This document shows, piece after piece, positions 20,894 through 60,092 of a DNA stretch of 64,000 nt. Under the pieces are notes generated by a model. It was not told where the DNA came from. It worked only from the letters and a program-made list of their open reading frames with translations, and made no database searches. A program made the translations under genes and the position numbers. Source of the stretch: Porpolomopsis calyptriformis (taxonomy: Eukaryota > Basidiomycota > Agaricomycetes > Agaricales > Hygrophoraceae); contig OX621170.1 in NCBI GenBank assembly GCA_951640195.1, positions 1,736,001 to 1,800,000 of the forward strand, given 5' to 3'. Position 1 is the stretch's first letter. Every line of letters begins with the position of its first letter.

Positions 20894-21626
20894 ATACCTA
20901 CTCATGAAGAAATCCAAGTCCAGCTTGCACAGCTACAAGCGCAGCTCAAGGATGAAGAATGATGAGAGCATGAGGAAGAGCAGCAATTAAGAGAAGAATG
21001 ACAGGTGGCTAGAAAGGCTGCTAAGGCTGCTAAAAAGGAGGTAGCAAGGAGGGTGAAGGAAGTGGCTCGAACAATGGAGCAGGTGGAGACAGCAGTGGAG
21101 AGATCAGGGCAAGACACCTTGATTAGAAGGCTATAAGTGTTTTCTATTTTATCCATGTTATTCCAGAGTTGACCAGAGTTATTTAGGAGGGCTCCATGTG
21201 AGCCTTGCATCAGGAAAGGGAGTGTGGAGGAGTGCGTATAGCTGACTGGAGCAGGGAAAGCCTAGAGCTACACAACCTGCCAACATGTAAAGGCCAAATG
21301 CTGGGTTGGGGAGGAACCAGCAAAAAGGAAATGCACCCAGACCACCATGGAGGAACCAGAGCATAGAGGGAAGTGAAAGCAAGGGAATGCAGAATCAGTG
21401 GAGGTGGAGAATTTGAGGGAGGAGTTATAGGGAGTTTGGGAGGAGATGAGGAAAATGAGGATAGAGATGAAGAGGATGAGGGAGTCCATGGAGAGGACTA
21501 AGGAGTTGTTGGATGGAGATTACAGGGACAGCAGAGAAAGTGGAGAAAGTTCGGAGGAGTTGGAGATGTTAGAGGAGGAGGAAATGCCCATAAGGGATGT
21601 AGAATTAGTCCCTTCAATTGAACTAG
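20894..21626 (+). pseudogene. Decayed copy of the antisense coiled-coil/Cys6 gene
   Basis: Homologous throughout to the gene at 31392-32172, in the same place relative to an LTR-D. The start codon has become ATA (20894-20896), Arg codons have become TGA, the splice donor GTAAGT has become ATAAGT, and one base is lost early in exon 2. A TATA box (TATATAAAA, 20853-20861) is conserved. The Cys motif is partly lost: C-E-P-C is disrupted, while C-Q-H/T..C-W is still traceable near 21270-21300. The C-terminal coiled coil (M-R-K-M-R-I-E-M-K-R-M-R-E-S-M-E-R) survives. Confidence 0.75.
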
Positions 21627-30961: not shown

Positions 30962-30966
30962 CTAAC

Positions 30967-31222
30967 TGTTAGGTCTGAAGTTTCGGAGTTGAATTCGGAG
31001 ATCGGAGATGGATAAACGATGGGACTTAGTCGATATTCTGTCTACAGATACAGGGAAAAAACGCAGTACTTATATACCTGCTAGATAATTATATCTGAGA
31101 CATAGTGACGACAGAAGACGTCATAAGTAGGAAACATGTGAAAAGTATGGAGTGTTCGGAGTTGTTGGAGTTATCAGAGTTCATCGGAATTCATTGGAGT
31201 TTGTCGGAACTGGGATGTAACA
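30967..31222 (-). repeat. 3' LTR-D of Element D (256 bp)
   Basis: TGTTAGGTCTGAAG..GGGATGTAACA. Equal in length to the partner at 46697-48157 once LTR-J is removed. Confidence 0.93.
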
Positions 31223-31351
31223 GTATCTCCCTCTCAAGGGTGAGCCCTTGAGACTGCATATTGGACTTGACCATATTTGGTAATGACCAAGAAATCAGAG
31301 TTTCGGAATGTGGCGGATTTCGGAGAATCGTCGGAGTTTGAAATCGGAACA

Positions 31352-31358
31352 TATATAA
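31352..31358 (+). promoter_or_regulatory. TATA box of the antisense gene in Element D
   Basis: TATATAA, 34 bp before the ATG at 31392, in a spacer between the 3' LTR and the gene. The same box (TATATAAAA) lies 33 bp before the lost start of the second copy at 20894, and the spacer between LTR and gene is well conserved. Confidence 0.6.
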
Positions 31359-31391
31359 TGAGGTCTGGTGGACCACTCTTCTTCATTAACA

Positions 31392-32172
31392 ATGCCCACT
31401 CGCAAAGAGATCCAAGCCTAACTTGCACAACTGCAAGTCCTGCTCGAAAACGAAGAACAACGAGAATGCGAGGAAGCGGAGAAAGAAGCAGAGGAGGCCC
31501 GGAGGACGGAGGAAGAGCGTCAGTTGGCAGAGGAACAATGAGTGGCCAGAAAGGTGGCCAAAGCTGCAAAAAGGGAGGCAGCAAGGAGAGTGAAGGAGGC
31601 AGCTCGAACAGTGGAGCAAGCAGAGATGGCGGCAGAGGAAAGATCAGGGCAAGAGGCCTTGATCAGGAGGCCGTAAGTAATTTCTTTTTTATCCGCTTTA
31701 TTCCAGAGTTGACTGGAGTTTATTTAGGAGGGCTCCATGCGAGCCTTGTGTCAAGAAAGGGAGCGCGGAGGGGTGTGTGTGGCCGACCGGACAGGGGAAG
31801 GCCCAGAGTTGTACTGCCTGCCAACAGGTAAAGGCCAAATGCTGGGTTGGGGAAGAACTAGCAAAAAGGAAACGCATCTGGAGTGCCACGGAGGAACCGG
31901 AACACAGAGGAAAGAGGCGACGAGGAAATGTGGAGTCATCAGAGATGGTGAATTTGAGGGAGGAGTTGCAAGGAGTTCAGGGGGAGATGAGGAAGATGAA
32001 AATGGAGATGAAGAGAATGAGGGAGTCCATGGAGAGGACTGAGGAGCTGCTAGATGGGGATTATAAGGACAGTGGAGAGAGTAGAGAAAGTTTGGAGATG
32101 TCGGAGGTGTCAGAGATGTCGGAGGAGGAAGAATTACCTATAAGGGATGTAGAAATAGTCCCTTTGGAATAG
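31392..32172 (+). pseudogene. Antisense coiled-coil/Cys6 zinc-motif gene of Element D
   Basis: Exon 1 31392-31672, intron 31673-31706 (GTAAGT..TTCCAG), exon 2 31707-32172. The splice joins two frames and restores one protein of about 248 codons, with TAA and TGA (both explicable by C-to-T) the only stops. The N-terminus (M-P-T-R-K-E-I-Q-A) leads into a Glu/Ala/Arg coiled coil. Exon 2 opens with A-P-C-E-P-C-V-K-K-G..G-C-V-W, then S-C-T-A-C-Q-Q-V-K-A-K-C-W: C-x2-C..C and C-x2-C-x6-C, like a Zn(II)2Cys6-type or related zinc motif. The rest is a Met/Glu/Lys coiled coil and an acidic tail. Its stop lies 48 bp from the pol stop, tail to tail. A regulatory or nucleic-acid-binding role is inference. 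Confidence 0.75.
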
Positions 32173-32220
32173 ATAATAATTTTTTTTGAATCGAAGAAAA
32201 ATAAATAAGAGTGAAAGAAA

Positions 32221-33095
32221 TCAATAGTCAGGTCCAGGTTTCTCCGGATAAGCAGAGTGGAACTCCAAGATGAGTTCCAAAGCATGTCCTAGCTCAGTAG
32301 CGAGGATCCATGAAGTTTCTTTGTCGGTACCTTCATAGCCTTCCCAACGAACCAAATACAATAATTTGCATAAGCAACACCTATTATCAATTTTCGAGTC
32401 TAGGATTTCGGAGATCTCGAACTCCGGTTCTCTGTCTATGATTACCGGAGGAGGCGGAGGTTGTACTCGGTTTGGAATCATATTTGGTGAGGCTGGTTCC
32501 AACTGTGATACATGAAAGACAGGATGAATAGCTTTCATGGAACTAGGCAAATGGAGAGTATAGGAATGGGTTCCAACTTGGGCAATGACCTCAAAAGGAC
32601 CTAAGTTCTTCTCCGAGAGTTTCTTGGAGGGTCTGGTAGTTTGGAAAAACTTGGCCTTTATGAAGGCTTGAGTTCCTATTTCGGAATGCACTTTAAATCA
32701 GCGTAGTGCTGATAATGCTTTTGAGCTTCAGAGATGGTATTTCGGAGTTCGGAGTGGAGTTCATCCAAATCAACAGCTAATTCTCTGGCTCAAACAGAAG
32801 TAAGATCACGCTCAGGGTGTACTGAAATATTTGGATGATAACCCTTGTTGGCGAAAAAAGGGGATATCCCAGTAGTAGTGTTCAGAGCGTTGTTATATGT
32901 GAATTCCGCAATAGCCAGGAGATGGGACCAGTTGTCCTGTTGATAGTTACAATACATCCATAGATATTGCTCCAAGGTTTGATTAACTCGTTCAGTTTGT
33001 CCGTCACCTTCCGGATGATACCCGGAGGTAAAATGGAGATGCATGTCAAGGACTTTACCCAATGACCGGAAGAAGCAGGAGATGAACTCCGAGCC
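32221..33095 (-). pseudogene. pol: Element D pol, part 3: end of integrase and chromodomain
   Basis: Resumes after the solo LTR-I at R-G-S-E-F-I-S-C-F-F. The third catalytic residue is in Y-H-P-E-G-D-G-Q-T-E-R-V-N-Q (about 33010). One stop (32790) and a small shift precede the C-terminal frame 32691-32221: G-P-F-E-V-I-A-Q-V-G..H-P-V-F-H-V-S-Q-L, then the chromodomain E-F-E-I-S-E-I-L-D-S..L-Y-L-V-R-W-E-G-Y..E-T-S-W-I-L. Ends P-G-P-D-Y-stop. Confidence 0.87.
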
Positions 33096-33099
33096 TCGG

Positions 33100-33707
33100 T
33101 GATACGTCTGCTTCGTGTATGAGAACCGAACACAGAACAAGGTGCAAGGACAACTATAAAGAGTCTCGACACAGCCTATGATCGATAATTGTGGAAAGGG
33201 AGTCTTCGATCGTTCGCGAATGTGATCGATCGGGGAATCGGAAGGATCGGGAAGTCGAAAGAGGAAGTCTTAGAAGATCTAAAGAGGATCTAGACTCGAG
33301 AGCGAGAGAGAAGTGAATATCTAACTTGTTGGATCACTAGCTACAACATACAGTATATATATCTTCTAGTACAAGGATCCCTTTGAGTGTATATGATAAA
33401 AGGGGAGCCTCTCTAATGATCTAAGGGGAAAGTAGTAAATGGACATGAAGGAATCGAATGAAAAGGGAGAAATAGAAGAGAACAGATGCCTTTGAATACT
33501 GTCTTCCCTTTGATATACAAACTTTCATTCGCGTTCGGAAAGCTTCAATCGCGTTCGGAGCGTTCAATGATTCTCGAAGTCGTTCGGGACGTTCGGGAGC
33601 TATCGGGAGCATTCGGAGGGTTCAAGTTCATGTTCGAAGGACTTGATAGGCATCTAGTATTCGTATAGTTGAATATACGGTGCTCAGGGGACGGAGGGGT
33701 CGTATCA
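33100..33707 (-). repeat. Solo LTR-I (608 bp) in the integrase of Element D
   Basis: TGATACGTCTGC..GTCGTATCA with the 4-bp duplication TCGG (33096-33099 and 33708-33711). Excision joins C-D-R to G-S-E-F in the integrase core. Same length as the left LTR of Element I. Confidence 0.93.
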
Positions 33708-33711
33708 TCGG

Positions 33712-34940
33712 TCACAGGTGACATGTGAGGGAACTCCATGTTTGGAGAATACATGGACAAGGAAAAGTTGAGCGAGTTGAGGAGCAGTGATGGTGTCAAA
33801 GGTTGGTATAAAAATAGCTTGTTTGGAGAATCGATCAACAACGATAAGAATAGCAGAGAATTCATCGGAGTTAGGGAGATGCTCAATGAAATCCATGGAG
33901 ATGGAATTCCAAGGCTTCTCTGGAATTGGGAGTTGCTTGAGCAAACTATAAGGTCGATGGCGAGGAACTTTGGACCTAGTGCACATAGTACAGGAGTTAC
34001 AGTAATCTTTTACAAAGGTCTGGAGTTCAGGCCATGTGTATTCTCATCGGATCAATTCAAGCATTTTGTTTTGACCAAAATGACCAGCAATTGGATGATC
34101 ATGCTTCATACGCAAAATTTGAAGTTGTAAGTCATCTACATTGGGCACATAGATACGACCATCGTGATGAAGGAAACCAGAGGTGTCGATAGTCCATCGG
34201 AGATTGGAGTTGGCATCGGAGTTGAACTCTGCAACCTTTAGGTGCTCCATAGCCACTGGATCATCACGAAGTGAATTCCAAATTTTTGAGTGGAGGGAGT
34301 CTACATCCATAATGAATGCAGCCTTTAACACTGGATCCAATAAGGATAAAGCTCGTAGGGATGAAGCCGGTTGCTCCGAGGTAAAAACCAGTCGGAGATT
34401 CTGAGGATTGATACTGGCGTAGTCACTATCTCCCTCTTTAGGATTTATGTCATATCAACGCATTAAGAAGTCCAGTTTTGCTCCGAGTTTTCCGGGGCGA
34501 AAACGAATGACGAGATTAAAGCCCGACAAAAATTCAGACCAATGAGCCTGATGGCGTGACAGGAGTTTGGTTGTAGAAAGGTATACCAAATTCTTGTGAT
34601 CAGTGACAACATCGACTGGGTCAGAAGAGCCTTCAAGGTAATGTTGCCAGTTGCGAAAACTATCATGAATGGCTAATAGCTCCTTGTTGTGAATATCGTA
34701 ATTCAACTCCAGCGGAGTTAAAGTCCGAGAGTAGAATGCGATGGGATGTAATGATTCATCATCTGCATAAGTTGATAAGATGCCCGCTATGGCGTAATCA
34801 GAGGCATCTGTTTCTACCATCAGACGGGATCCCAGAGTGAAGTTGATGAGGACTGGAGTGGAAGTGAAGGCCTGCTTCAGAGATTCAAATGCGAATTTGC
34901 ACTGAGTATCAAAATTCCACGGAACGTTTTTCCGGGTCAG
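33712..34940 (-). pseudogene. pol: Element D pol, part 2: RNase H and integrase start
   Basis: Resumes at L-T-R-K-N-V-P-W-N-F-D. RNase H has E-T-D-A-S-D-Y-A-I-A-G-I-L-S near 34815 and the V-V-T-D-H-K-N-L motif near 34600. The integrase zinc region is H-D-H-P-I-A-G-H-F-G..C-N-S-C-T-M-C near 34080-33980, and the core starts S-M-D-F-I-E-H-L-P at about 33890, with the first Asp present. Three stops in ~400 codons. Confidence 0.87.
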
Positions 34941-34944
34941 TCAC

Positions 34945-35552
34945 TAATACGTCTGCTTCATGTATGAGAACCGAACACAGAACAAGGTGCGAGGATGACT
35001 ATAAAGAGTCTTGACACAGCCTATGATCGATAATTGTGGAAAGGGAGTCTTCGATCGTTCACGAACGAGATCGATCGGGGAATCGGAAGGATCGGAAAGT
35101 CGAAAGAGGAAGTCTTCGAAGATCTAAAGAGGATCTAGACTCGAGAGTGAGAGAGAAGCAAATATCTAACTTTTTGGATCACTAGCTACAACATACAGTA
35201 TATATATCTTCTAGTACAAGGATCCCTTTGAGTGTATATGATAAAAGGGGAGCCTCTCTAATGATCTAAGGGGAAAGTAGTCAATGGACATGAAGTAATC
35301 GAATGAAAAGGGAGAAATAGAAGAGAACAGATGCCTTTGAATGGTGTCTTCCCTTTGATATACAAACTTTCATTTGCGTTCGGAAAGCTTCGATCGCGTT
35401 CGGAGTGTTTGATGAATCTCAAAGTCGTTCGGGACGTTCGGAAGCTATCAGGAGTGTTCGGAGGGTTCGAGTTTGTGTTCAAAGGACTTGGTAGGCGTCT
35501 AGTATTCATATAGTTGAATATACGGTGCTCAGGGGACGGAGGGGTCATATCA
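34945..35552 (-). repeat. 3' LTR-I of Element I (608 bp)
   Basis: TAATACGTCTGC..GTCATATCA (TG end decayed to TA). Longer than its partner by about 20 bp, due to a small indel near 35390. Confidence 0.93.
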
Positions 35553-35553
35553 T

Positions 35554-35589
35554 CTCCTCCTCACTGAAATGTTGACTGTCTTCAGTCAA
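35554..35589 (-). promoter_or_regulatory. 3' polypurine tract and adjoining hairpin of Element I
   Basis: On - the tract is AACATTTCAGTGAGGAGGAG directly before the LTR (35573-35554 on +). On its 5' side lies the hairpin TTGACTG-TCTT-CAGTCAA (35572-35589), a 7-bp stem. The 20-mer recurs exactly at 38823-38842. Such tracts resist RNase H and prime plus-strand synthesis. Confidence 0.75.
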
Positions 35590-35718
35590 TCACGTGATTT
35601 GCTGGTAGTTGCCAAGGCGCATTTATAAGTGTGACAAGCATGTCACATTCATCTTCAGACACGACCGTCTTCAAATTGCGCACCACAACGCCAAGAAAAC
35701 CGCGTCAAGTCATTCAAG

Positions 35719-37261
35719 ATGTCGAAGAACATCATTAACATCGCGAAAGAGAAGATAAGCGACCAGATGAAGTCACTTCCGGATGGAGTTGCCGAACCTG
35801 AAGACTATAAAGTCTGGGGGCAACAATTCTGCAAGCTGCTGGTAAGTCTCGTGTTTTTAATCATTTTTCTTCGCTAATCCATTTTTTAGATCGCATATAA
35901 TCGGGTCGTGAAGGCCCTGAAGCAAACATCGATGGATGACGAGGTCATCGCATGGCAAAAGGAGGCCCGCGAGACCTTCGATGCTTTCGAAGAGCGGGAA
36001 TGGTTGGAGTGGGCGGGGGAGTTGTTAATGCCAAGGTTGGCAGAGGTGGTACGTCGGGAGGTCAAAGAGAAGGCGGAGGCGGAGAGGGAAGAGCGAGAGC
36101 AAAGGGCAGAAGAGGAACGTGAGGCGAAGGAGAGGGCGGAGGCATCTGCGCGGGAGGAATGAGAGAGGGTCGAGCGCGAGGAGCGAGAGGAGCGCGAGCG
36201 GGTCGAGAGGGCGGAGCGAGAGGTACGAGAGAAGCGGGAGCAAGAGGAATGGGAGGAACGGGAACGGGAGGAACGAGACGCGGAGGGCCGGAAGCGGGTG
36301 GAGGAAGCCTACAAGAGGCTCCTCCAGTCGCTTATAGATGGAAAAATCGATGAGGAGGAGTTCCGTTGAGAGACGGAAAAGGCGGCAGGCGAAGGCGGAA
36401 CGAAGGCGGCAGAGGTGTCGGCAGACACGCCAGACACGATGGGGGGGACGACGGAAACGACAGAGGATGGGCACCAGCCCTCGGTTGACGAAGATGAATC
36501 AGCGGCAGCAGCGCAATCGCTGACTGCAGATGAACTGGTTGAGTGGTCGAAGGCGGCGCATCGGGAGAGGATGGCGGTGAAGGGACGGTCGCTCCCTGCG
36601 ATCACGACATGGGAGTACCGCAAGAGAAAGGCGATAGAGGAGTCTTTGTGCCCGGTCGAGGGCAAAGTGAGTTTTCCTCTTTTCTCTTATTTTTGTTTTA
36701 ACTAACGGACTCTTTTTATTTCGTAGTGTGATTTCTGTGAAAAGGTCGGCGCGGAATGCGAAATCGACCCTGCCGATCCGTTATGCGCCAAGTGCGTAAC
36801 GGATAAGCGCGGGTGCTATTGGAAGGGGGAAATGCGATTGGGGAAGAAATTCAAGCCGCGGCCCAAGGGGGAGTTGAAGGGCGCGAACAAGTCGGCGACG
36901 GAAGAGGAATCGAAGAAGGGGGTTCGGAAATCGGCGAGGGCCATATCTCGTAAGTGTTTCTTTTTCTATCATTGGTTTTATTCTTTCTAACTAATTCTTT
37001 TCAGGTCCAGTTGTCTATATCGACGAGTTGCTGCCTTTCGAAGAGGAAACGGTGGGCGAAGGCTCAAAGGAAACGACACGACCGATTGCGGGTCGGAAAG
37101 GAAAGGCAAAGGTGGCGGCTGTCGATGAAGACAAGTCGCGAGAGGTGTTGGCGGCGATCGCGGAGGAGAAAGCGCGCGTAAAGGCGCGAATCGTCGTTCT
37201 CAAAGAGATATTGAGGGGTTTAGAAGAGAGGGAAGAGGAGATGGTCTTGGACCAGTTATAG
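35719..37261 (+). pseudogene. Antisense four-exon coiled-coil/Cys6 gene of Element I
   Basis: Exons 35719-35841, 35890-36666, 36727-36949 and 37005-37261; introns of 48, 60 and 55 nt with GTAAGT/GTGAGT donors, CTAAT/CTAAC branch sites and AG acceptors. Joined, they give one frame of about 460 codons with only two stops, both CGA-to-TGA (36160 and 36367). Protein: M-S-K-N-I-I-N-I-A-K-E start, E-W-L-E-W-A-G-E-L-L, a ~100-residue Glu/Arg coiled coil, an acidic Thr-rich part, then exon 3 opening C-D-F-C-E-K-V-G-A-E-C..L-C-A-K-C-V-T-D-K-R-G-C-Y-W: C-x2-C-x6-C and C-x2-C-x6-C. Basic stretch and helical tail follow. A TATA-like TTATAA (35623) and a CACGTG (35591) lie upstream. Same architecture as the Element D gene. 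Confidence 0.8.
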
Positions 37262-43290: not shown

Positions 43291-43878
43291 TGATACATCT
43301 GCTTCGTGTATGAGAACCGAACACAGAACAAGGTGCGAGGATGACTATAAAGAGTCTTGACACAGCCTATGATCGATAATTGTGGAAAGGGAGTCTTCGA
43401 TCGTTCGCGAACGAGATCGATCAGGGAATCGGAAGGATCGGAAAGTCGAAAGAGGAAGTCTTCGAAGATCTAAAGAGGATCTAGACTCGAGAGCAAGAGA
43501 GAAGCAAATATCTAACTTTTTGGATCACTAGCTACAACATACAGTATATATATCTTCTAGTACAAGGATCCCTTTGAGTGTATATGATAAAAGAGGAGCC
43601 TCTCTAATGATCTAAGGGGAAAGTAGTGAATGGACATGAAGTAATCGAATGAAAAGGGAGAAATAGAAGAGAACAGATGCCTTTGAATAGTGTCTTCCCT
43701 TTGATATACAAACTTTCATTCGCGTTCGGAGTGTTCGATGAATCTCGAAGTCGTTCGGGACGTTCGGAAGCTATCGGGAGTATTCAGAGGGTTCGAGTTC
43801 GTGTTTGAAGGACTTGGTAGGCATCTAGTATTCGTATAGTTGAATATACGGTGCTCAGGGGATGGAGGGGTTGTATCA
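43291..43878 (-). repeat. 5' LTR-I of Element I (588 bp)
   Basis: TGATACATCTGC..GTTGTATCA, partner of 34945-35552. Contains CAGTATATATATC near 43540, a likely TATA box. Confidence 0.93.
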
Positions 43879-43882
43879 TCAC

Positions 43883-46664: not shown

Positions 46665-46851
46665 GAATAAAAACCCGAGCTAGAGACAGAATATACTGTT
46701 AGGTCTGAAGTTTCAGAGTTGAATTCGGAGATTGGAGATGGATAAACGACGGGACTTAGTCGATATTCTGTCTACAGATACAGGGAAAAAATGCAGTACT
46801 TATATACCTGCTAGATAATTATATCTGAGACATAGTGACGACAGAAGACAT

Positions 46852-48052
46852 TGATGTGATGTGGAGTCATCTGAGCTCTGGGATCTGCCCCAAGTGATGA
46901 TGGGAGGCACAATAGAAAGGAGCTATCAAAGAAATCGTGAAAATCGAAGAAATAGAAGAAATCGGAAATTCGGAGCACTCTCTAGAGTGCTAGAGGCGAT
47001 CGAAGAGGCTCAAACATGAAGGACTAGACGTGGGACGATGGGATCTATCTTCCTTCTCTATGATACAAACATATCTACAAGTAAATATATCTGTGAAAAC
47101 AAAGATCCCTTTATATGCTATTGTCAGGACTGAGGTTCCAAGGGGGTTCTCTGGGCCTAACACGACACAATCAGGGTTGACAAGTGTTCCAAAGAAGCTA
47201 TTGGATTCAAGGTGGAACCACAGTATGTAGACAAGTAAGTCAAAACTAGAGTAGTCTACTATAAAATGCGTACATTATATATGCGTAGCAAATAAAGGGA
47301 TTTTTATGAAGGACTAAGAGGAACGAACATCTAAGGGTCATAAGGACCTTGTATGTAAGGGGAAGTCATCTACAATATAGCCTTCAAAGGGGACTCTAAC
47401 AGAATGTATGGGATGAAAAGTAGAAAGGGAAGAAAGGGACCATTATGGATGGTCCGAACAGTGGAGTGGCTCAGAGTGCGCCAGTCGAGTGCGCTCGGAT
47501 GGCGCACGGCTTTTAGGGATTCCAACGAACCAATTTCGGAATGAATCCGATCAGTAGATCTTGAGTTATCTTTGGTTTAGTGCGCAGGACGAGTACACTC
47601 GGATCGCGCAAGATGATATGACATCATCCAAAGGTGCGCAGAACGAGTACGCTCGGATCGCACAAGGTGATATGACATCATCCAAAGGTGCGCGAAATGA
47701 GTGTGTTCAGATGGCGCAAGGTATTGGGTTTGAGATTTCTGACAGCTATATAGTAAAGGGATGAGACTTCTGAACGAAGCCACCAGTGAAAGGGATGATG
47801 GAAACGATGAGGATCTACACAATGGACATCTGGCTATCAGATGCATCCTTTGATATGAGCTGCGATCGCGAATCGAAGGATCGAAGAATTCGAAGAAATT
47901 CGCAGAAATCCGAAGTGTTCGGAGATAAATCGCTGGACGGGAAGCTGAATCGCGTAGTCGGGAACATCGTAGAAGTGTAGTAGACATCTTGAGGATCATG
48001 TAGATATGTGGAACACGTCCTCCGGACCTCAGGGGACAAAGGGGTCGTATCA
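46852..48052 (-). repeat. Solo LTR-J, split by a solo LTR-E
   Basis: Inverse copy of 4567-5139; exactly 573 bp after LTR-E and one GCTAT are removed. Flanks are ACAT (46848-46851) and ATGT (48053-48056). The intact site in the sister LTR at 31110-31123 reads ACGT, so both duplications have lost the CpG by a single transition, on opposite strands. Confidence 0.88.
47122..47744 (-). repeat. Solo LTR-E (623 bp) with 54-bp internal repeats
   Basis: TGTCAGGACTGAGG..TTTCTGACA with duplication GCTAT (47117-47121 and 47745-47749). Longer than other LTR-E copies (506 and 398 bp) because of tandem 54-bp units at 47581-47634, 47635-47688 and a partial third. Each has a GCGCA..GAGTACRCTCGGAT..GCGCA near-palindrome and GATATGACATCATC. 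Confidence 0.9.
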
Positions 48053-48264
48053 ATGTCATAAGTAGGAAACATGTGAAAAGTACAGAGTGTTCGGAGTTGT
48101 TAGAGTTATCAGAGTTCATCGGAATTCATCAGAGTTCATCGGAACTGGGATGTAACACTAACAAATAATCCCTTAATTAAGTGACCAGGGATAGTCACAT
48201 GTGACAGGAGGTCTACAGGTTTGTAGTAGTGCTGTAAGGGTTTTGGTTCTTACCTTGCTTGTCT

Positions 48265-53501: not shown

Positions 53502-53875
53502 TGTTAGGTGCGAAGCAGGACTCAGGTCTTCACTCTGGGAGGTCTAATGTGGGTCTTAGCCGATGCAAACAAGAAGTTGGCAAGTCCAAGTTGTGGTTCA
53601 ACCTAGAGAAGTACAAGCAATTCCGAGCTGCCTATATTTACCCTAGCTGAGTCCGAAAATGTGATTATGTAATCAATCCATGGAACGATCGCGTAAGCAA
53701 TGATTAAGTGTAAAAGATAAGAAGGAGTGACAAATGTCACACTTGTGACCGTGACTCGACCGGTCAGGTAACAGTCACGTTGTGACAGCGTGACAATTGC
53801 AGCATCGAAAATGATAGTAAAGAGAACTGGCACACAGAAAGGAAATAATAACCAAAAAAGAGACTCATCGTAACA
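53502..53875 (-). repeat. 3' LTR of Element G (374 bp)
   Basis: TGTTAGGTGCGAAGC..CATCGTAACA, partner of 59701-60087. Confidence 0.95.
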
Positions 53876-53908
53876 CCACCCTCTCATTAGAATCGCGTCC
53901 ACGCGATG
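53876..53908 (-). promoter_or_regulatory. Hairpin and polypurine tract at the 3' end of Element G
   Basis: On -, right after the pol stop: TCGCGT-GG-ACGCGA (53895-53908), a perfect 6-bp stem, then TTCTA and ATGAGAGGGTGG up to the LTR. Element F has the same layout with TCGC-GCGGAT-GCGA at about 22981-22995. Confidence 0.7.
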
Positions 53909-53909
53909 T

Positions 53910-56900
53910 TCAGAATAGACATCGGAGATGTCTTGAGTAATCACGGAGGAGCCAACGGGGTGCATAACAGGGTTGAATTGGGGACTGATACTCGTATTGT
54001 TTATGGATCTCGATGTCAAGAAGAGGGTTCACAATTTGGTAGGCACGGAGAGTTTGGCCTTGAGCATCAAGTTGAAGTACAGCCGTGACAGCATTGACTG
54101 GGGTTGACTCATGAACCCAAACTCTACGAACTTGAGGGGGGAGGATAGGGAGAAGGGTGGAGGCATCTTGCTTGAGATCAAGGAGGCGGTCAACAATGTC
54201 AGGAGACAATGGAACAATAGCATCGAGATTGTCATTAGATTGAGGTGGATAATAATCTTTGCCAGGTGAATGAGTGACTGGGTTATAGAGCCTTGGATCA
54301 ACTCCAGGGGAGTCATCAGTCTGGATCACTCTAATATTATTGGTAGGGGCTGGGCGATTTGGATTCTCAATGTGGAATTTGCTGACTAGATCTAGGGCGT
54401 TTTTGACATTTCGTTCAGGCTCCCAGGTGTCCTCTTCACGGGTGTATCCCTTCCAATGGACTAGGTATTGGAGACGTCCTCTTCGTCGACGGGAGTCACG
54501 AATTTCTTCAACAATATACTCAGGTTCTCCTTCAATATCTAAAGGGAGCGGAGGGGGAGGTTTTCTTTGGTTCGGGAATTTGGGGGGACGATATGGAGAA
54601 AGATATGATTCATTGAACACAGGGTGAAGGCCAGGCCAAGGGAGTTCAAGGCGGTAAGAGGAGTGACCAACCCTCTCAACAATCTTGAAGGGTCCAAAAC
54701 GTTTGTCGTCAAGCTTCTTCATTGGACAATTAGTGCGAAGATTGGTTGAAGCAAGGTAAACTCGGTCTCCAGGTTGGTATTCAACAGCTTGACGGGCATG
54801 CCTATCATGGGTTTCTTTCATCTGTTCATTCGCTTGGCGAAGGGCAGATTCAGCTTCACAGTGGATGTTCTTCATACGAGTGGCAAACTCTTGAGCAGAT
54901 TCATTCCTGACTTCCTTCTTGGAGCTATCTCCTTTCCAGGGGTGCCGACCATAGTTGAGGAAGAATGGTGTTTGGTGAGTTGCAGCATGAATAGAGTTGT
55001 TGTATGAAAATTCAGCTAGCACAAGCCATTCCTTCCAGTTGTCCTGACAGTGGTTGATAAAGATATGGAGATACTGTTCAAGCATCTGATTCATCTGTTC
55101 AGTCTGACCGTCAGTTTGGGGATGGTAGGTAGTGGAGATGTTTTGGGAGGTTCCAAGAAGGCGAAAGAGGTCGGTCATATACTTTGATACAAATCTAGGG
55201 TCACGATCATGGATGATTCGTTTGGGGAGTCCATGGTCTCGGATAACACAGTCTCGAATGATTTTGGCAAAGCCTTCAGAATTGAGTTCAATATGGGTTG
55301 GTTCAAACTTGACAGCCTTTGTGAACCAGTCAACGATGGTAAGGACAGCGTTATAGCCTTGACACTCTGGTATGGGGCCTACGAGGTTGACCATAATCAT
55401 TTCCCAAGGTTGCATTGGTGGTTCAAAGGGGTGGAGTGGGGTCTTGGTAGGGAGATGAGAGGCTTTGGTCCTTTGACAGGTTTCGCATCCAGTGACATAG
55501 GTTGCAACATCTCGTTGAAGCGTGGGCCACCAGTAGTCTCGAAGGACACCTTCAGCAGTCTTGTACCAGCCATAGTGTCCAGAGAGTGGGGTGTCATGAT
55601 ACTGAGAGATGATGTCGCCACAGAGGGTTTTGTCAATGGGGACATAAATCTGATTCTTGAAGGTACGGACACCATCATTAGAGGTTTCCCAGTTTTGATC
55701 CCTTTCTGAAACAAGCATGATAGTCTTGTCCAGGTTGTTGCGAGCTCGGACAATTCGGGAATGGAAGTCGACAGGCTTAATATCATGTTGGACTTGCCGT
55801 AGATTGAGTTTGTTTTCTTCTGGGACAGGGCCTAGGGGTTCGCAAGGGAGAGTGTCGAAAGGTGAGAAGAGATTATCTGTGAGTAAAATGGCGTCATTAT
55901 TGTCATCCATCCCCCTTTCAAATCCTGGTCGTCTCGACAGGATATCAGCCTTGGAGTTTGATTTCCCCGGGATGTGGTGAAGCGTGAAGTGATAATCTTG
56001 TAGCTCTGTGAGCCAACGGGCCTGTCGTTTGTTGAGCTTTTGAGGCTTTTTGAAGTATTGGAGATTAGCATGATCTGTCCAGATCTCGAAATCTTGCTTA
56101 GCCGATATTAAATGTTGGCGGAATTCCTGGAGTGCAATCATCACAGCAAGTAATTCGCGGTCATAGATCTGATAATTTCGTTCCGTAGGGGTGAGAGATT
56201 TCGAGATGAAGCCAATTAGTTTCCAAATGTTGTCCTGTCGTTGGGAGAGAACAGCACCTATGGCATAGTCTGAAGCATCGGTCTCTACACGGAAAGGGTC
56301 CTGGTCATTGGCAATAGAGAGAATTGGAGAAGTGGTAATGAGGGTCTTGAGTTGGTCAAAAGCATTCTGGCAGTCTTGAGTCCAGTCAAAAGGAACACTT
56401 CCAGTAAGGGTGTTAAGAGGTTGGGCAATTCCAGCAAAGTGGTGGATAAAACGTCGGTAGAAGTTACAGAACCCGAGGAAGGACTGAACATCACGTTTGC
56501 ATTGGGGGATTGGCCATTCAGAGATTCCCTTGACCTTGATCGGGTCCATCTCGACTTTTCCTTCAGAAATGATGACACCAAGGTACTCCACTTGATTCTG
56601 GTCAAAGTCGCACTTCTCCAGCTTGAGGTAGAGCTTGTGTTTACGAAGAAGGGACATTACTTCATAGACATGTTTGTGATGCGTATCGAGATCTCTGTCA
56701 AAGATGAGGATGTCGTCAATGTAGATTAGGACATGACCTTGGCGGATTTGGACATGGAAGATGTCGTTCATCATATTTTGAAAGGTGGCAGGGGAATTTG
56801 TGAGACCGAAGAACATAACAAGGGGTTCGAAGTAACCACGATTGGTATGAAAGGCTGCCTTGAATTCATCCCCCTCCCTGATCCGGACATTGTTGTAGCC

Positions 56901-58286
56901 CCAGTGTATATCTAGCTTGGTGAAATAACAGGCATTCTGTAGTGTGTCGATCAATTCTGTGATTAAAGGGAGAGGATACCGGTTCTTGACAGTGATTTCA
57001 TTAAGCTTGCGGTAGTCTTGTATAGGTCAGAGTCTTCCATCTTTTTTCTTGATGAAGAAGAAGGGGGAGGCAATAGGGGAGATGGAGGGTTGGATTCGTC
57101 CAGTCCGGAGGTTTTCATCAAGGAATTCATCGAGTTGAGCTCGTTCATCCACACTAAGTGGGTAGATCTTGCAGTCAAGTACTTCTTCAGTTCCAGGTAG
57201 AAGTTCAATGGCATGATCCCAGGGACGATGAGGTGGAAGTTCATCAAACTCTTCCTTGGTGAATACATCCTCAAACTCATGAAGGTAAGAAGGGACACTC
57301 TCTCTCCAGGAGGCAGTCTTGTCCTGAGCCTCATACGCTTTGATTGCGAGTTCTTGGGACTTGGTCGTGAGGAGGTGGATATTGATTGCAGGGGTAGGGT
57401 CCACCATGAGGATGTGATCTCCCTCCTCAAGAGTGAGAGCATTCAAGCTGCAAGAATCAATATGGGGGTTACAGTCAGAAGGGCATCTGTCAAAGATGAG
57501 GGTTCCTTTCTTCCAGTCCACTGAGGGGTTGTGAATCTTGAGCCAATCATGACCGAGGAAGATCTGTCCTTTGCCAAGGTTGGTGACACCAAAGTTGATT
57601 CGCTCCCAGTGGGTACCAACCCTGAGCTCAAGAGTGACCATTTCAGAGATCGGTCCTTCAGTATTAGGCTGGCCATCTGCATTTAACACAGGGATTGGAT
57701 GTGCAAGCTTGACTGTGTGCAGGTCATGGTCATGGACATATTTCACATTGATACAAGAGCCTTCACATCCACTATCAACCAGAGCAGTTGCTTGATGTTC
57801 AGCTCGATTGTCAAGAGTGACAATGGTGGTCTTGAGAACAAGTTGGGATCCTTTGGTGCCTCGAACAAACACGTGGGGGTCCTTGAGTTCGTTAACGGCA
57901 CAGATGGCATTCTCGGGGGACAGCAGATTGATTTCATCAACAGTGTGTTGAGTCATCTCGCAGAAGCGTACAGGGTGAGACCATTGCTTGAGGATGGGGA
58001 TTGCTTGATGGGGGTTACGTCTAAGAGTAGTAGCGACAGTAGTGGGTAACAAGGGGAGAGGATAGGGTAGGGTGCGTTCCAGGGTTTCTGCTTGTTGCGA
58101 GTTTGAATTCGGACTTGTTAGAGAAGGTGAAGAGACGCTGGCATTGGCATTTACTGTACATTGCATCATAGAGGGAGTAGAGAGGAAGTCCAAATCATTC
58201 TGCAAGCAACACAAGAAAAGAGCATATTCAGTTGGATGAAGGAAACGCGTCTTCACCGACCATTGTGAAAATCCTGGTCCTGTTGG
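53910..58286 (-). pseudogene. pol: Element G pol, open except for one TGA
   Basis: Expected to be made by -1 frameshift from gag at 58292-58286. From the first in-frame GTG (58256) it is 1,449 codons with a single TGA (57027-57025, R-L-stop-P-I-Q-D-Y, from CGA). Protease A-L-V-D-S-G-C-E-G-S at residue ~161. RT box Y-I-D-D-I-L-I-F at ~512. RNase H E-T-D-A-S-D-Y-A-I-G. Integrase zinc region H-Y-G-W..C-E-T-C-Q-R. The core has M-V-N-L-V-G-P (first catalytic Asp now Asn), H-D-R-D-P-R-F, H-P-Q-T-D-G-Q-T-E. Chromodomain Y-I-V-E-E-I-R..Y-L-V-H-W-K-G-Y..E-D-T-W-E-P-E. A 140-residue tail includes R-V-W-V-H-E-S-T-P-V-N-A-V-T and Y-A-P-R-W-L-L-R-D-Y. Confidence 0.92.
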
Positions 58287-59140
58287 TTTAAAAGCCCATT
58301 CAGCTCACTAAGTTCATCATCATCCATCTCCATCATAAGTGCTCTAACATTGACCTTCACCTTCTCCTGGGGGCAGTCACGACGGAAGTGTCCAACTTCA
58401 CCACAATTGAAGCAACGATTACTCTGTCGCGTCTTGTCCAGATCCATTGGCACACCTCGACCACCATGGATAATTCCAGAGGAGGTCTTAATATCTGGAG
58501 AGGTTTGGTTCTGAGCAGGAGGGCGGGGGGTAGGACGGAAGGTGGTAGGAGCCATAGGCTTTTGCAAGCGTTCATGGGATTGGAACTGTTCAAAGAGTCG
58601 TCCAATCATCATGACCTTGTCGCGGTAAGCTGGGTACGTGGTGGGGAGGGGAGGAGATGAGTAAACCTAGCGAATAATAGCCTGGTGGGTGTTCTTTTCA
58701 AGGATGCGAATCTGCTCCTTATCAGAGTTTTCAAGACCAGCATCGTGAAAGAGAAGCTCGAGCTTGAGGATCCATTCATCAATTTGCTGGCGATCCTGTC
58801 GGCAGTGCTCAACTTCCTCACGAGCCCGCCACTCAGTTACGCGATCCGCAAAGCTCACAGCAAGGGCATCTCTAAAGGTACTCCAGGGTCCAAGGGGAAT
58901 GGGGTCTCCTTCATCATTTACCACACTGAAGTATTCATCAACATAATGCTGAGCCCAGGTTGCCGCCGTCCCTTCCTTCATGTAGGAAAGGGTAACAAGA
59001 ATACGTTCCTCATCGCTAGTAACTTGTCGGCCACGGAGGTAGATAGTCACCTGCCGCATCCAGTTTCTGAAATCCTTTGGGGCACCATCGAAGGTGGAGG
59101 GCTTGGCGAGTTTAATCTTATTGGGGGTAGTATCAGTCAT
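58253..59140 (-). pseudogene. gag: Element G gag, open except for one TAG
   Basis: The ATG at 59140 (M-T-D-T-T-P-N-K-I-K-L-A-K-P) aligns with the Element F start. 296 codons. Core F-D-G-A-P-K-D-F-R-N-W-M-R-Q-V and Y-M-K-E-G-T-A-A-T-W-A-Q-H-Y. One TAG at 58669-58667, where Element F has Gln, so CAG to TAG. Zinc knuckle near 58415-58375: C-F-N-C-G-E-V-G-H-F-R-R-D-C, intact. Ends H-N-G-R-TGA at 58253. The slippery heptamer TTTAAAC lies 11 codons before the stop. Confidence 0.92.
58286..58292 (-). promoter_or_regulatory. -1 ribosomal frameshift heptamer TTTAAAC at the gag-pol junction
   Basis: Gag-frame codons are CTT TTA AAC CAA, so the heptamer T-TTA-AAC is in the canonical X-XXY-YYZ phase. 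Slipping back one base gives CCA ACA GGA and an open run of codons straight into the pol frame (V-K-T-R-F-L-H at 58256). The gag stop is at 58253, inside the overlap. Confidence 0.8.
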
Positions 59141-59199
59141 TGGTGTAGGAAAGGTTGGGGGGGGGGTGTCTTGGGGTTCGCTGGGGGTGTCTTCAAATT

Positions 59200-59640
59200 C
59201 TATGTCGTCCAAGAGACCGTATCTAACCCTTGAGCTTGTTCCTGGTGGCGTCGTTGCAGATTGTCTCGGATGTGGACTTCCCTGATAAGGTCAGTACCAT
59301 GTCGGCAAAAGATGCAGATTAATGAAGCAAGGAAGTGGGTGACTGGTTTGGGAGTATGTAGTGGCACGTGTGGGGATTGATCTAGAGCACTTCAGACACT
59401 AGCAAATCTGGATACAAGATCAACAGTTTAGCAGTGGAAGGCTGTGTGGAAGAAGGGGGGGCAGATAGGGATAGGGGTGTAAGGTGGGGCAGGATCAGTG
59501 GAGTAGTCCAGAGTAGTGGTCAACTTGAAACTAGTGGAAATGTCTGTTAGGGTCTTCTAAGTAGTTCCAAATGAAAGAGGATAGGACGTCCAAGGTTGTC
59601 TTCAACTAGTGAATAGTCGTGGAAGATGATAAGGAGCAGT
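59200..59640 (-). pseudogene. ORF0 of Element G
   Basis: The frame ends V-S-W-T-T-TAG at 59200, 60 bp before the gag ATG and in a different frame. The conserved tail T-H-F-L-A-S-L-I-C-I-F-C-R-H-G..L-I-R-E-V-H-I-R-D-N-L matches ORF0 of Element F. One TGA (CGA type) near 59390. The true start is unclear. Confidence 0.5.
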
Positions 59641-59700
59641 TCCAAGGAAGTGCTGGAAGAAGTGAGGTTGAAGAGGTGAGTTAAGAAGGTTGAACCAGCT

Positions 59701-60087
59701 GTTAGGTGCGAAGCAGGACTCAGGTCTTCACTCTGGGAGGTCCAATGTGGGTCTTAGCCGATGCAAACAAGAAGTTGGCAAGTCCAAGTTGTGGTTCAAC
59801 CTAGAGAAGTACAAGCAATTCCGAGCTGCCTATATTTACCCTAGCTGAGTCCGAAAATGTGATTATGTAATCAATCCATGGAACGATTGTGTAAGCAATG
59901 ATTAAGTGTAAAAGATAAGATAAGAAAGATAAGAAGGAGTGACAAATGTCACACTTGTGACCGTGACTCGACCGGTCGGGTAACGGTCACGTTGTGACAG
60001 CGTGACAATCGCAGCATCGAAAATGATAGTAAAGAGAACTGGCACACAGAAAGGAAATAATAACCAAAAAAGAGACTCATCGTAACA
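59701..60087 (-). repeat. 5' LTR of Element G (387 bp)
   Basis: Identical in layout to 53502-53875 with 14 extra bases in a GATAAGATAAGAAAGATAAG tract. Followed by CTTGA. Confidence 0.95.
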
Positions 60088-60092
60088 CTTGA

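Follow-up and report, generated by a model that had tools for sequence, protein, structure and literature searches.

Antisense genes lying between pol and the 3' long terminal repeat (LTR) have been described in plant Ty3 elements and in the Boty element of Botrytis, with no settled function in the available portions of these sources (PMC7264820, PMC11963269, PMC8365987, PMC4227169); the part of PMC7264820 available to us describes accessory genes in this orientation as having no known function in LTR retrotransposons. The same partial texts report a promoter of its own and a nuclear protein for the gene of Grande and suggest DNA binding for TRP28 (PMC7264820, PMC11963269), and give Boty a CHROMO domain (PMC4227169). 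For fungal Gypsy elements an additional open reading frame ('add. ORF') of unknown function is named in a figure legend of PMC2864245, the available text of which gives no orientation, element or sequence for it, and antisense or additional ORFs are not mentioned in the available portion of PMC10787394. Here we describe two spliced antisense genes, gene D and gene I, each predicted to encode a protein with a zinc-cluster-like cluster of six cysteines, in two Ty3 elements (D and I) of Porpolomopsis calyptriformis. Both lie in a 64,000 nt stretch of contig OX621170.1 (GCA_951640195.1, positions 1,736,001-1,800,000), the whole of which we call the window and whose coordinates are used below unless a prefix is given. 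A spliced antisense six-Cys gene is not described in the available portions of PMC7264820, PMC11963269, PMC8365987, PMC4227169 and PMC2864245, and our searches of the openly licensed literature, judged by titles and opening abstracts, turned up no basidiomycete LTR element with a zinc-cluster gene that is both antisense and spliced. Antisense accessory genes are already known; the spliced, zinc-cluster-like form appears to be new.

Two Ty3 lineages with a spliced antisense gene

Both genes occupy the plus strand, antisense to pol, between the end of pol and the 3' LTR (Table 1). Because the reverse transcriptases of D and I are ~24% identical over the 214 residues compared, we assign the elements to different Ty3 lineages, as the original prediction had done. 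It had also given them target duplications of 5 and 4 bp, which are CTAAC (30962-30966 and 48158-48162) for D and TCAC (34941-34944 and 43879-43882) for I, and a chromodomain in one of the two: Chromo is sub-threshold at the end of D pol, and a family search with the pol tail (325 residues) of a single I copy gave no Chromo match, with rve and SH3_Tf2-1 both matching sub-threshold. Element D lies on the minus strand from its 3' LTR to its 5' LTR, and its pol is the insertion site of element I. A third LTR of the I family, apparently solo, is found at 33102-33709, likewise inside D pol and beside the full element I.

The predicted location of the genes was confirmed, and their copy number, the frame kept across introns and the purifying selection on them go well beyond chance: in a six-frame search of the organism's own genome, D exon 2 has at least 87 matches and the Cys exon of I at least 86, both being lower bounds in which certain copies yield two matches. 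For D we took the 30 top matches together with 20 poorer ones, 50 copies in all, and for I the top 30, 28 of the latter being parseable; the antisense gene was present in most copies, under selection like that on other element genes. The predicted introns at 31673, 35842, 36667 and 36950 and the gene boundaries stand as first drawn, and so does the claim that splicing restores one frame. In D, whose product would have ~240 residues, the frame runs across the splice to the normal stop in 46/50 copies, 44 of these with an ATG, exon 1 measuring 167-293 bases across the 50. The splice donor is GTAAGT in 35/50 and ATAAGT in 15/50, the donor G having been lost by a CpG-type change, and the acceptor is TAG in 49 copies and CAG in one. 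In I, with a product of ~450 residues, a single frame spans four exons and three introns in 26 of the 28 parsed copies (30 examined). Its exon 2 is repetitive and aligns poorly, so we judged the frame there by exon length, which spans 720-1017 bases and is divisible by 3 in 27/28 parsed copies; the introns vary freely. Internal stops are lacking in only 7/50 D copies and 2/28 I copies, and the I copy in the window has two in frame. The genes had been said to be seen directly; this holds for the gene model, but no working copy is present in the window, where each gene carries two stops.

Selection on the antisense genes

Ratios of non-synonymous to synonymous change (dN/dS) were calculated with CpG-type transitions excluded and a spectrum-matched expectation, on 45 D copies (5/50 being dropped as truncated or out of register) and 26 I copies. 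Gene D has a non-CpG dN/dS of 0.27 (0.21-0.35), beside 0.31 for the pol end at the same loci (43 copies). Gene I has 0.20 (0.15-0.27), with its exon 3 at 0.13 (0.04-0.30); the pol end at the same loci has 0.10 (30 copies), so that gene I is less constrained than its pol. The other two forward frames of both genes give 1.6-2.5. This is the purifying selection that had been anticipated for intact copies. Changes found in two or more copies have a ratio of 0.35 in D and 0.25 in I, and singletons 1.28 and 0.48, respectively, indicating that the protein is selected during replication of the element and decays afterwards. Changes that are silent on the gene strand and altering on the other strand are over-represented 1.91-fold in D and 2.60-fold in I, with the reverse class at 0.83 and 0.28; this one-sided enrichment identifies the antisense gene strand as the coding strand. 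The strand test thus rules out sense (pol-strand) coding of the region in both elements, and the dN/dS and shared-change ratios lead us to reject a non-coding or incidental frame.

In-frame stops are mostly TGA where other copies have CGA (59/91 stops in the 45 D copies, 56/72 in the 26 I copies), and such stops bear the mark of methylation-type decay after insertion. Both families show heavy CpG-type decay in general, as CGA to TGA, CG to TG or CA, and donor G to A after C, which suggests methylation-linked mutation of repeats in this genome.

Predicted proteins

Both proteins have the order charged helix, six-Cys cluster, basic patch, C-terminal coiled coil. The cluster reads C-x2-C-x8-C-x11-C-x2-C-x6-C-W in D and C-x2-C-x6-C-x8-C-x2-C-x6-C-YW in I. 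All six Cys are present in 41/45 D copies and 24/26 I copies, and the minority fraction at Cys codons is 0.022 versus 0.125 at their neighbours in D, and 0.019 versus 0.072 in I. The position of the coiled coil differs from that first proposed. The Glu/Arg stretch of I holds 2-4 hydrophobic and 24-31 charged residues per 35, which rules out a heptad coiled coil there and makes a single charged helix more likely; the segment after the Cys cluster, in which 8-9 of 10 heptad a/d positions are hydrophobic in both proteins, has the pattern of a real coiled coil.

Fungal Zn2Cys6 clusters have the spacing C-x2-C-x6-C-xn-C-x2-C-x6+-C, bind two zinc ions and read CGG-containing DNA. The I cluster has this spacing and fits the Gal4-type form (PF00172; C-x2-C-x6-C-x8-C-x2-C-x6-C), with the basic patch and coiled coil after the cluster as well, whereas D departs from it in the first half (x8) and is also wider in the linker (x11). 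Zn_clus is the only Pfam family matched by the isolated D and I domains, in both cases below cut-off. Searched against the PDB as a single sequence, the I Cys exon matches GAL4 alone (1d66; E 0.15), with the six Cys aligned. Neither whole protein has a Pfam match above cut-off. Protein database searches with D, with the Cys region of I and with a relative outside transposons (below) returned no match, the first of them having scored 7,998 candidates sharing most words in a database perhaps poor in fungal proteins; the viral contigs searched held no relative, and an NCBIfam search gave nothing of use.

Control region

A TATA box precedes each gene. That of D, TATATAAT, is exact in 41 of the 43 copies with both landmarks (7/50 are without one). 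Near it, the end of the D 3' LTR holds seven CGGA sites, each of which is CGG in 10-30 of 43 copies and otherwise mostly TGG or CAG; on the same strand, TCGGA occurs at 18.3 per kb in the D control region versus 2.5 in the gene and 3.4 in the pol end. In one I LTR there are 6 TTCGG against 1.3 expected, a number reached by 0/500 shuffles, and the other two I LTRs have 4 (p 0.028) and 6 (p 0.004). Chains of at least three CGG(A/G) at 8-12 bp spacing number 5 in the window against 0.82 expected, and 4 of them are in I LTRs. In the control LTRs, four copies of two other families, neither TTCGG nor TCGGA is significantly enriched (lowest p 0.078). The CGG-containing repeats of both LTRs are suggestive, and we treat them as a lead, not a result.

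Kinship of the two genes and a relative outside transposons

The original prediction gave both genes the same architecture, which holds loosely for the layout; the intron phase at the Cys cluster (2 in D, 0 in I), the number of introns (1 versus 3) and the N-termini differ. Nor did the two Cys domains align in a profile comparison: hhalign covered 15 columns at a probability of 3.9%, with shallow profiles (effective number of sequences 1.3), and a shuffle test gave p 0.10, or 0.46 with the Cys held fixed. Because the profiles are this shallow, the failed alignment is absence of evidence; homology of the two Cys domains is not shown, and a single gene type for D and I is suggested by layout alone.

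Gene I does have a relative elsewhere in the genome. The most divergent match to its Cys exon, at C3:1063078-1063281 (E 1.7e-7), lies amid apparent host genes (locus G000:C3:1061900-1064500, L081); by eye, the neighbouring frames look like a dihydrouridine synthase, a ubiquitin-domain protein and a peptidase. The relative is single-copy, a search with its own sequence finding itself, I-family places at 28-43% identity and one weak extra (E 0.4), and the 11,001 bases round it contain nothing similar to two pol queries or to the whole window (best E 2.6). It has in common with gene I the Cys exon, the C-terminal coil and an intron of phase 0 that immediately precedes the first Cys, and its intron after the Cys exon is probably phase 1, as in I. 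Common ancestry of the two is the reading that these features call for, and from the shared exon, introns and coil it follows that gene I was probably exchanged with the host as unspliced DNA, either captured from it or donated to it and domesticated. The case for gene D and the same relative is weaker, with p 0.012 for its Cys region, rising to 0.23 once the Cys are fixed, and p 0.0025 for the coil.

Proposed function and the points against it

The role of the protein had been left open. The reading we favour, to which we give about an even chance, is that the protein binds DNA in the nucleus and regulates the element through the element's LTR. A TATA promoter next to the 3' LTR, belonging to the accessory gene itself, would drive its transcription in the direction opposite to gag-pol, and the transcript would be spliced. 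Since the genomic RNA is the opposite strand, in which these introns could not be spliced out, they would survive retrotransposition; antisense placement would thus be a simple reason for a retroelement keeping introns. The spliced mRNA would yield a protein with charged helix, zinc-cluster-like six-Cys domain, basic patch and C-terminal coil, the six-Cys domain presumably binding zinc. We may reasonably infer that the D and I proteins work like a Gal4-type dimer: the protein would dimerise, enter the nucleus and bind DNA, probably at the CGG-containing repeats in the U3 region of its own LTRs, and this binding could tune sense and antisense transcription of the element in the fashion of retroviral regulators. 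In its fullest form the proposal is that two Ty3 lineages independently acquired intron-bearing genes for Gal4-like dimeric DNA binders, in antisense so that the introns survive, which read CGG arrays in their own U3, at least one gene having been exchanged with the host unspliced; taken as a whole, we consider this doubtful. If true, it would amount to a retrovirus-style self-regulatory circuit in fungal retrotransposons. What the fungal case offers is a measure of selection on the protein beside that on pol at the same loci, a domain suggestive of function, candidate binding sites in the element's own LTR, and a relative, located outside transposons, that is informative about where the gene came from.

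Several observations weigh against a DNA-binding regulator, or against the data from which it is drawn. The domain matches are weak: Zn_clus (PF00172) scores 14.9 bits with D and 10.1 bits with I, both below the curated cut-off of 21, and none of the 38 rows of a genome-wide Zn_clus search falls at any D or I match, so that membership in the Zn_clus family is not supported. As a profile, the I domain matches ZIC3 chains (E 0.14, 0.49) and not GAL4, and the D domain has no PDB match. The top Pfam match of the whole D protein is DASH_Duo1, on the coiled coil (E 0.0075, below cut-off). Alignment-free structure models were too poor to support a fold search, with predicted local distance difference test (pLDDT) values of 56 and 61. 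Between Cys 2 and Cys 3, where Gal4-type clusters usually carry basic residues, the I cluster has none.

The LTR sites are open to similar doubts. The three I LTRs contain no surplus of the bare CGG triplet (p 0.56-0.86) and the D LTR a marginal one (p 0.046), and at least one of 100 shuffles also reached five CGG(A/G) chains. The repeat controls comprise two families, one of which has 2 TCGGA per LTR (p 0.08, 0.12). The D sites are weakly more conserved than their spacers (circular-shift p 0.051), the I motif columns are not (p 0.61), and CGG as the target is assumed by analogy with known zinc clusters.

As to the coding evidence, copies were picked by match quality, so that intact ones are favoured. 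Gaps in D exon 1 are codon-sized in 14/14 runs among the 30 best-matching copies, but in 14/23 distinct runs under 60 bases among all 50; the others may stem from truncated copies. Gaps in I exon 2 are codon-sized in 28/59 runs of the nucleotide alignment. The opposite-strand frame with coinciding third positions also has a low dN/dS (0.32 in D, 0.35 in I), which is the expected effect of overlap.

Alternative functions

Two other functions seem to us improbable, to a like degree. In the first, the protein would be a helper of integration or nuclear import that attaches to chromatin or DNA and directs the pre-integration complex, regulation not being its task. The cluster, basic patches and coiled coil suit tethering too, and the pol tail of the one I copy lacks a chromodomain match, with that of D sub-threshold; the gene is, however, encoded apart from integrase and on the opposite strand, and D retains an SH3/chromo-like tail as well. 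In the second, the protein would be an anti-silencing factor against host DNA methylation or RNA interference, in the manner of plant VANC proteins, which are such factors. The CpG-type decay, with 56/72 I stops and 59/91 D stops at CGA, is what would be expected if the host methylates these elements, but decay of old copies is uninformative on what the protein does, and in the absence of an above-cut-off Pfam match the protein has no known anti-silencing domain.

Rather less probable is self-restriction, in which the protein would hold down the copy number of its own element or block related ones. Both families are many-copied, and PMC7264820, in its available portion, discusses inhibition by antisense transcripts via double-stranded RNA, though not by a protein; selection within the element to retain an inhibitor is harder to explain. 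That the antisense RNA alone matters, through double-stranded RNA or interference and with an incidental reading frame, is very unlikely: antisense transcription is common among retroelements according to the same partial source (PMC7264820), but the coding frame has a dN/dS of 0.20-0.27, codon-sized indels, and conserved splice sites and Cys. Just as remote is the reading of the gene as neutral cargo captured from the host, for all that gene I shares intron placement with a relative outside recognisable transposons, since neutral cargo would have a shared-change ratio of ~1 and those found are 0.35 and 0.25.

Feature coordinates and nearby loci

Table 1. Window positions of the two antisense genes, their control sequences and the adjoining parts of elements D and I
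Feature	Position	Strand	Remarks
Element D 3' LTR	30967..31222	-	5' LTR 46697-48157, interrupted
D 3' LTR CGGA direct repeats	31148..31207	+	9-10 bp spacing; partly decayed in window copy
Other CGG sites, between the D LTR and its TATA box	31296..31347	+	same orientation
TATA box of gene D	31352..31359	+	TATATAAT, 40 bp before ATG
Gene D exon 1	31392..31672	+	helical, Glu/Arg/Ala-rich; two in-frame stops in window copy
Gene D intron (phase 2)	31673..31727	+	GTAAGT..TAG; a few codons before first Cys
Gene D exon 2	31728..32172	+	six-Cys cluster, basic patch, heptad coiled coil, acidic tail
End of D pol	32221..32697	-	SH3_Tf2-1; Chromo sub-threshold
Element I 3' LTR	34945..35552	-	5' LTR 43291-43878; pair 96% identical
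I 3' LTR TTCGG(A/G) direct repeats	35381..35462	+	
TATA box of gene I	35623..35629	+	TTATAAG, 96 bp before ATG; exact in 25/27 copies
Gene I exon 1	35719..35841	+	123 nt in 28/28 parsed copies
Gene I intron 1	35842..35889	+	48-51 bases across copies
Gene I exon 2	35890..36666	+	long charged Glu/Arg helix, variable length
Gene I intron 2 (phase 0)	36667..36726	+	ends directly at first Cys; 58-85 bases across copies
Gene I exon 3	36727..36949	+	six-Cys cluster and basic stretch
Gene I intron 3 (phase 1)	36950..37004	+	53-60 bases across copies
Gene I exon 4	37005..37261	+	C-terminal heptad coiled coil, stop
Dead third copy of gene D (exon 2 part)	21176..21613	+	72% identity, 4 stops

The dead third copy that had been placed at 20894-21626 proved to belong to the D family, the interval in Table 1 being its best match. 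A further Ty3 element at 53502-60088 has a long open pol whose stop lies ~35 bases from the LTR, and so has no room for an antisense gene. Elsewhere in the genome, two loci near a D match (L085, G000:C9:1585800-1588400, and L086, C1:3254600-3257100) each contain a true Zn_clus protein, above the Pfam cut-off, on the same strand as and just after a DDE-type transposase-like frame; at L086, the one examined for it, DDE_3 is sub-threshold. A DNA transposon that carries a zinc-cluster gene may be present at these loci.

Comparison with known systems

The nearest counterparts by placement are the plant aORF-3R genes (gene23 of Grande, RIRE2, TRP28 of Retand), which according to the available portions of PMC7264820 and PMC11963269 are likewise antisense between pol and the 3' LTR and present in most copies. 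The D and I genes differ from these in being spliced and in having a six-Cys cluster; the main text of the Retand paper does not contain the word 'intron', and the TRP28 domain PF04195 has no Pfam match in the D or I proteins at E up to 10. Among fungi, brtn of Boty in Botrytis cinerea, reportedly from Zhao et al. 2011, is likewise an antisense gene in a Ty3 element. Botrytis belongs to another fungal phylum than this basidiomycete. We liken brtn to the present genes by its description in the available portions of PMC8365987, PMC7264820 and PMC4227169.

A self-regulator of the kind we favour would also have functional parallels in human T-cell leukemia virus type 1 (HTLV-1), whose HBZ is likewise an antisense regulator expressed from the 3' LTR side and whose Tax likewise acts on U3 repeats. 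The parallel would be one of function only, HBZ and Tax having folds other than that of the D and I proteins.

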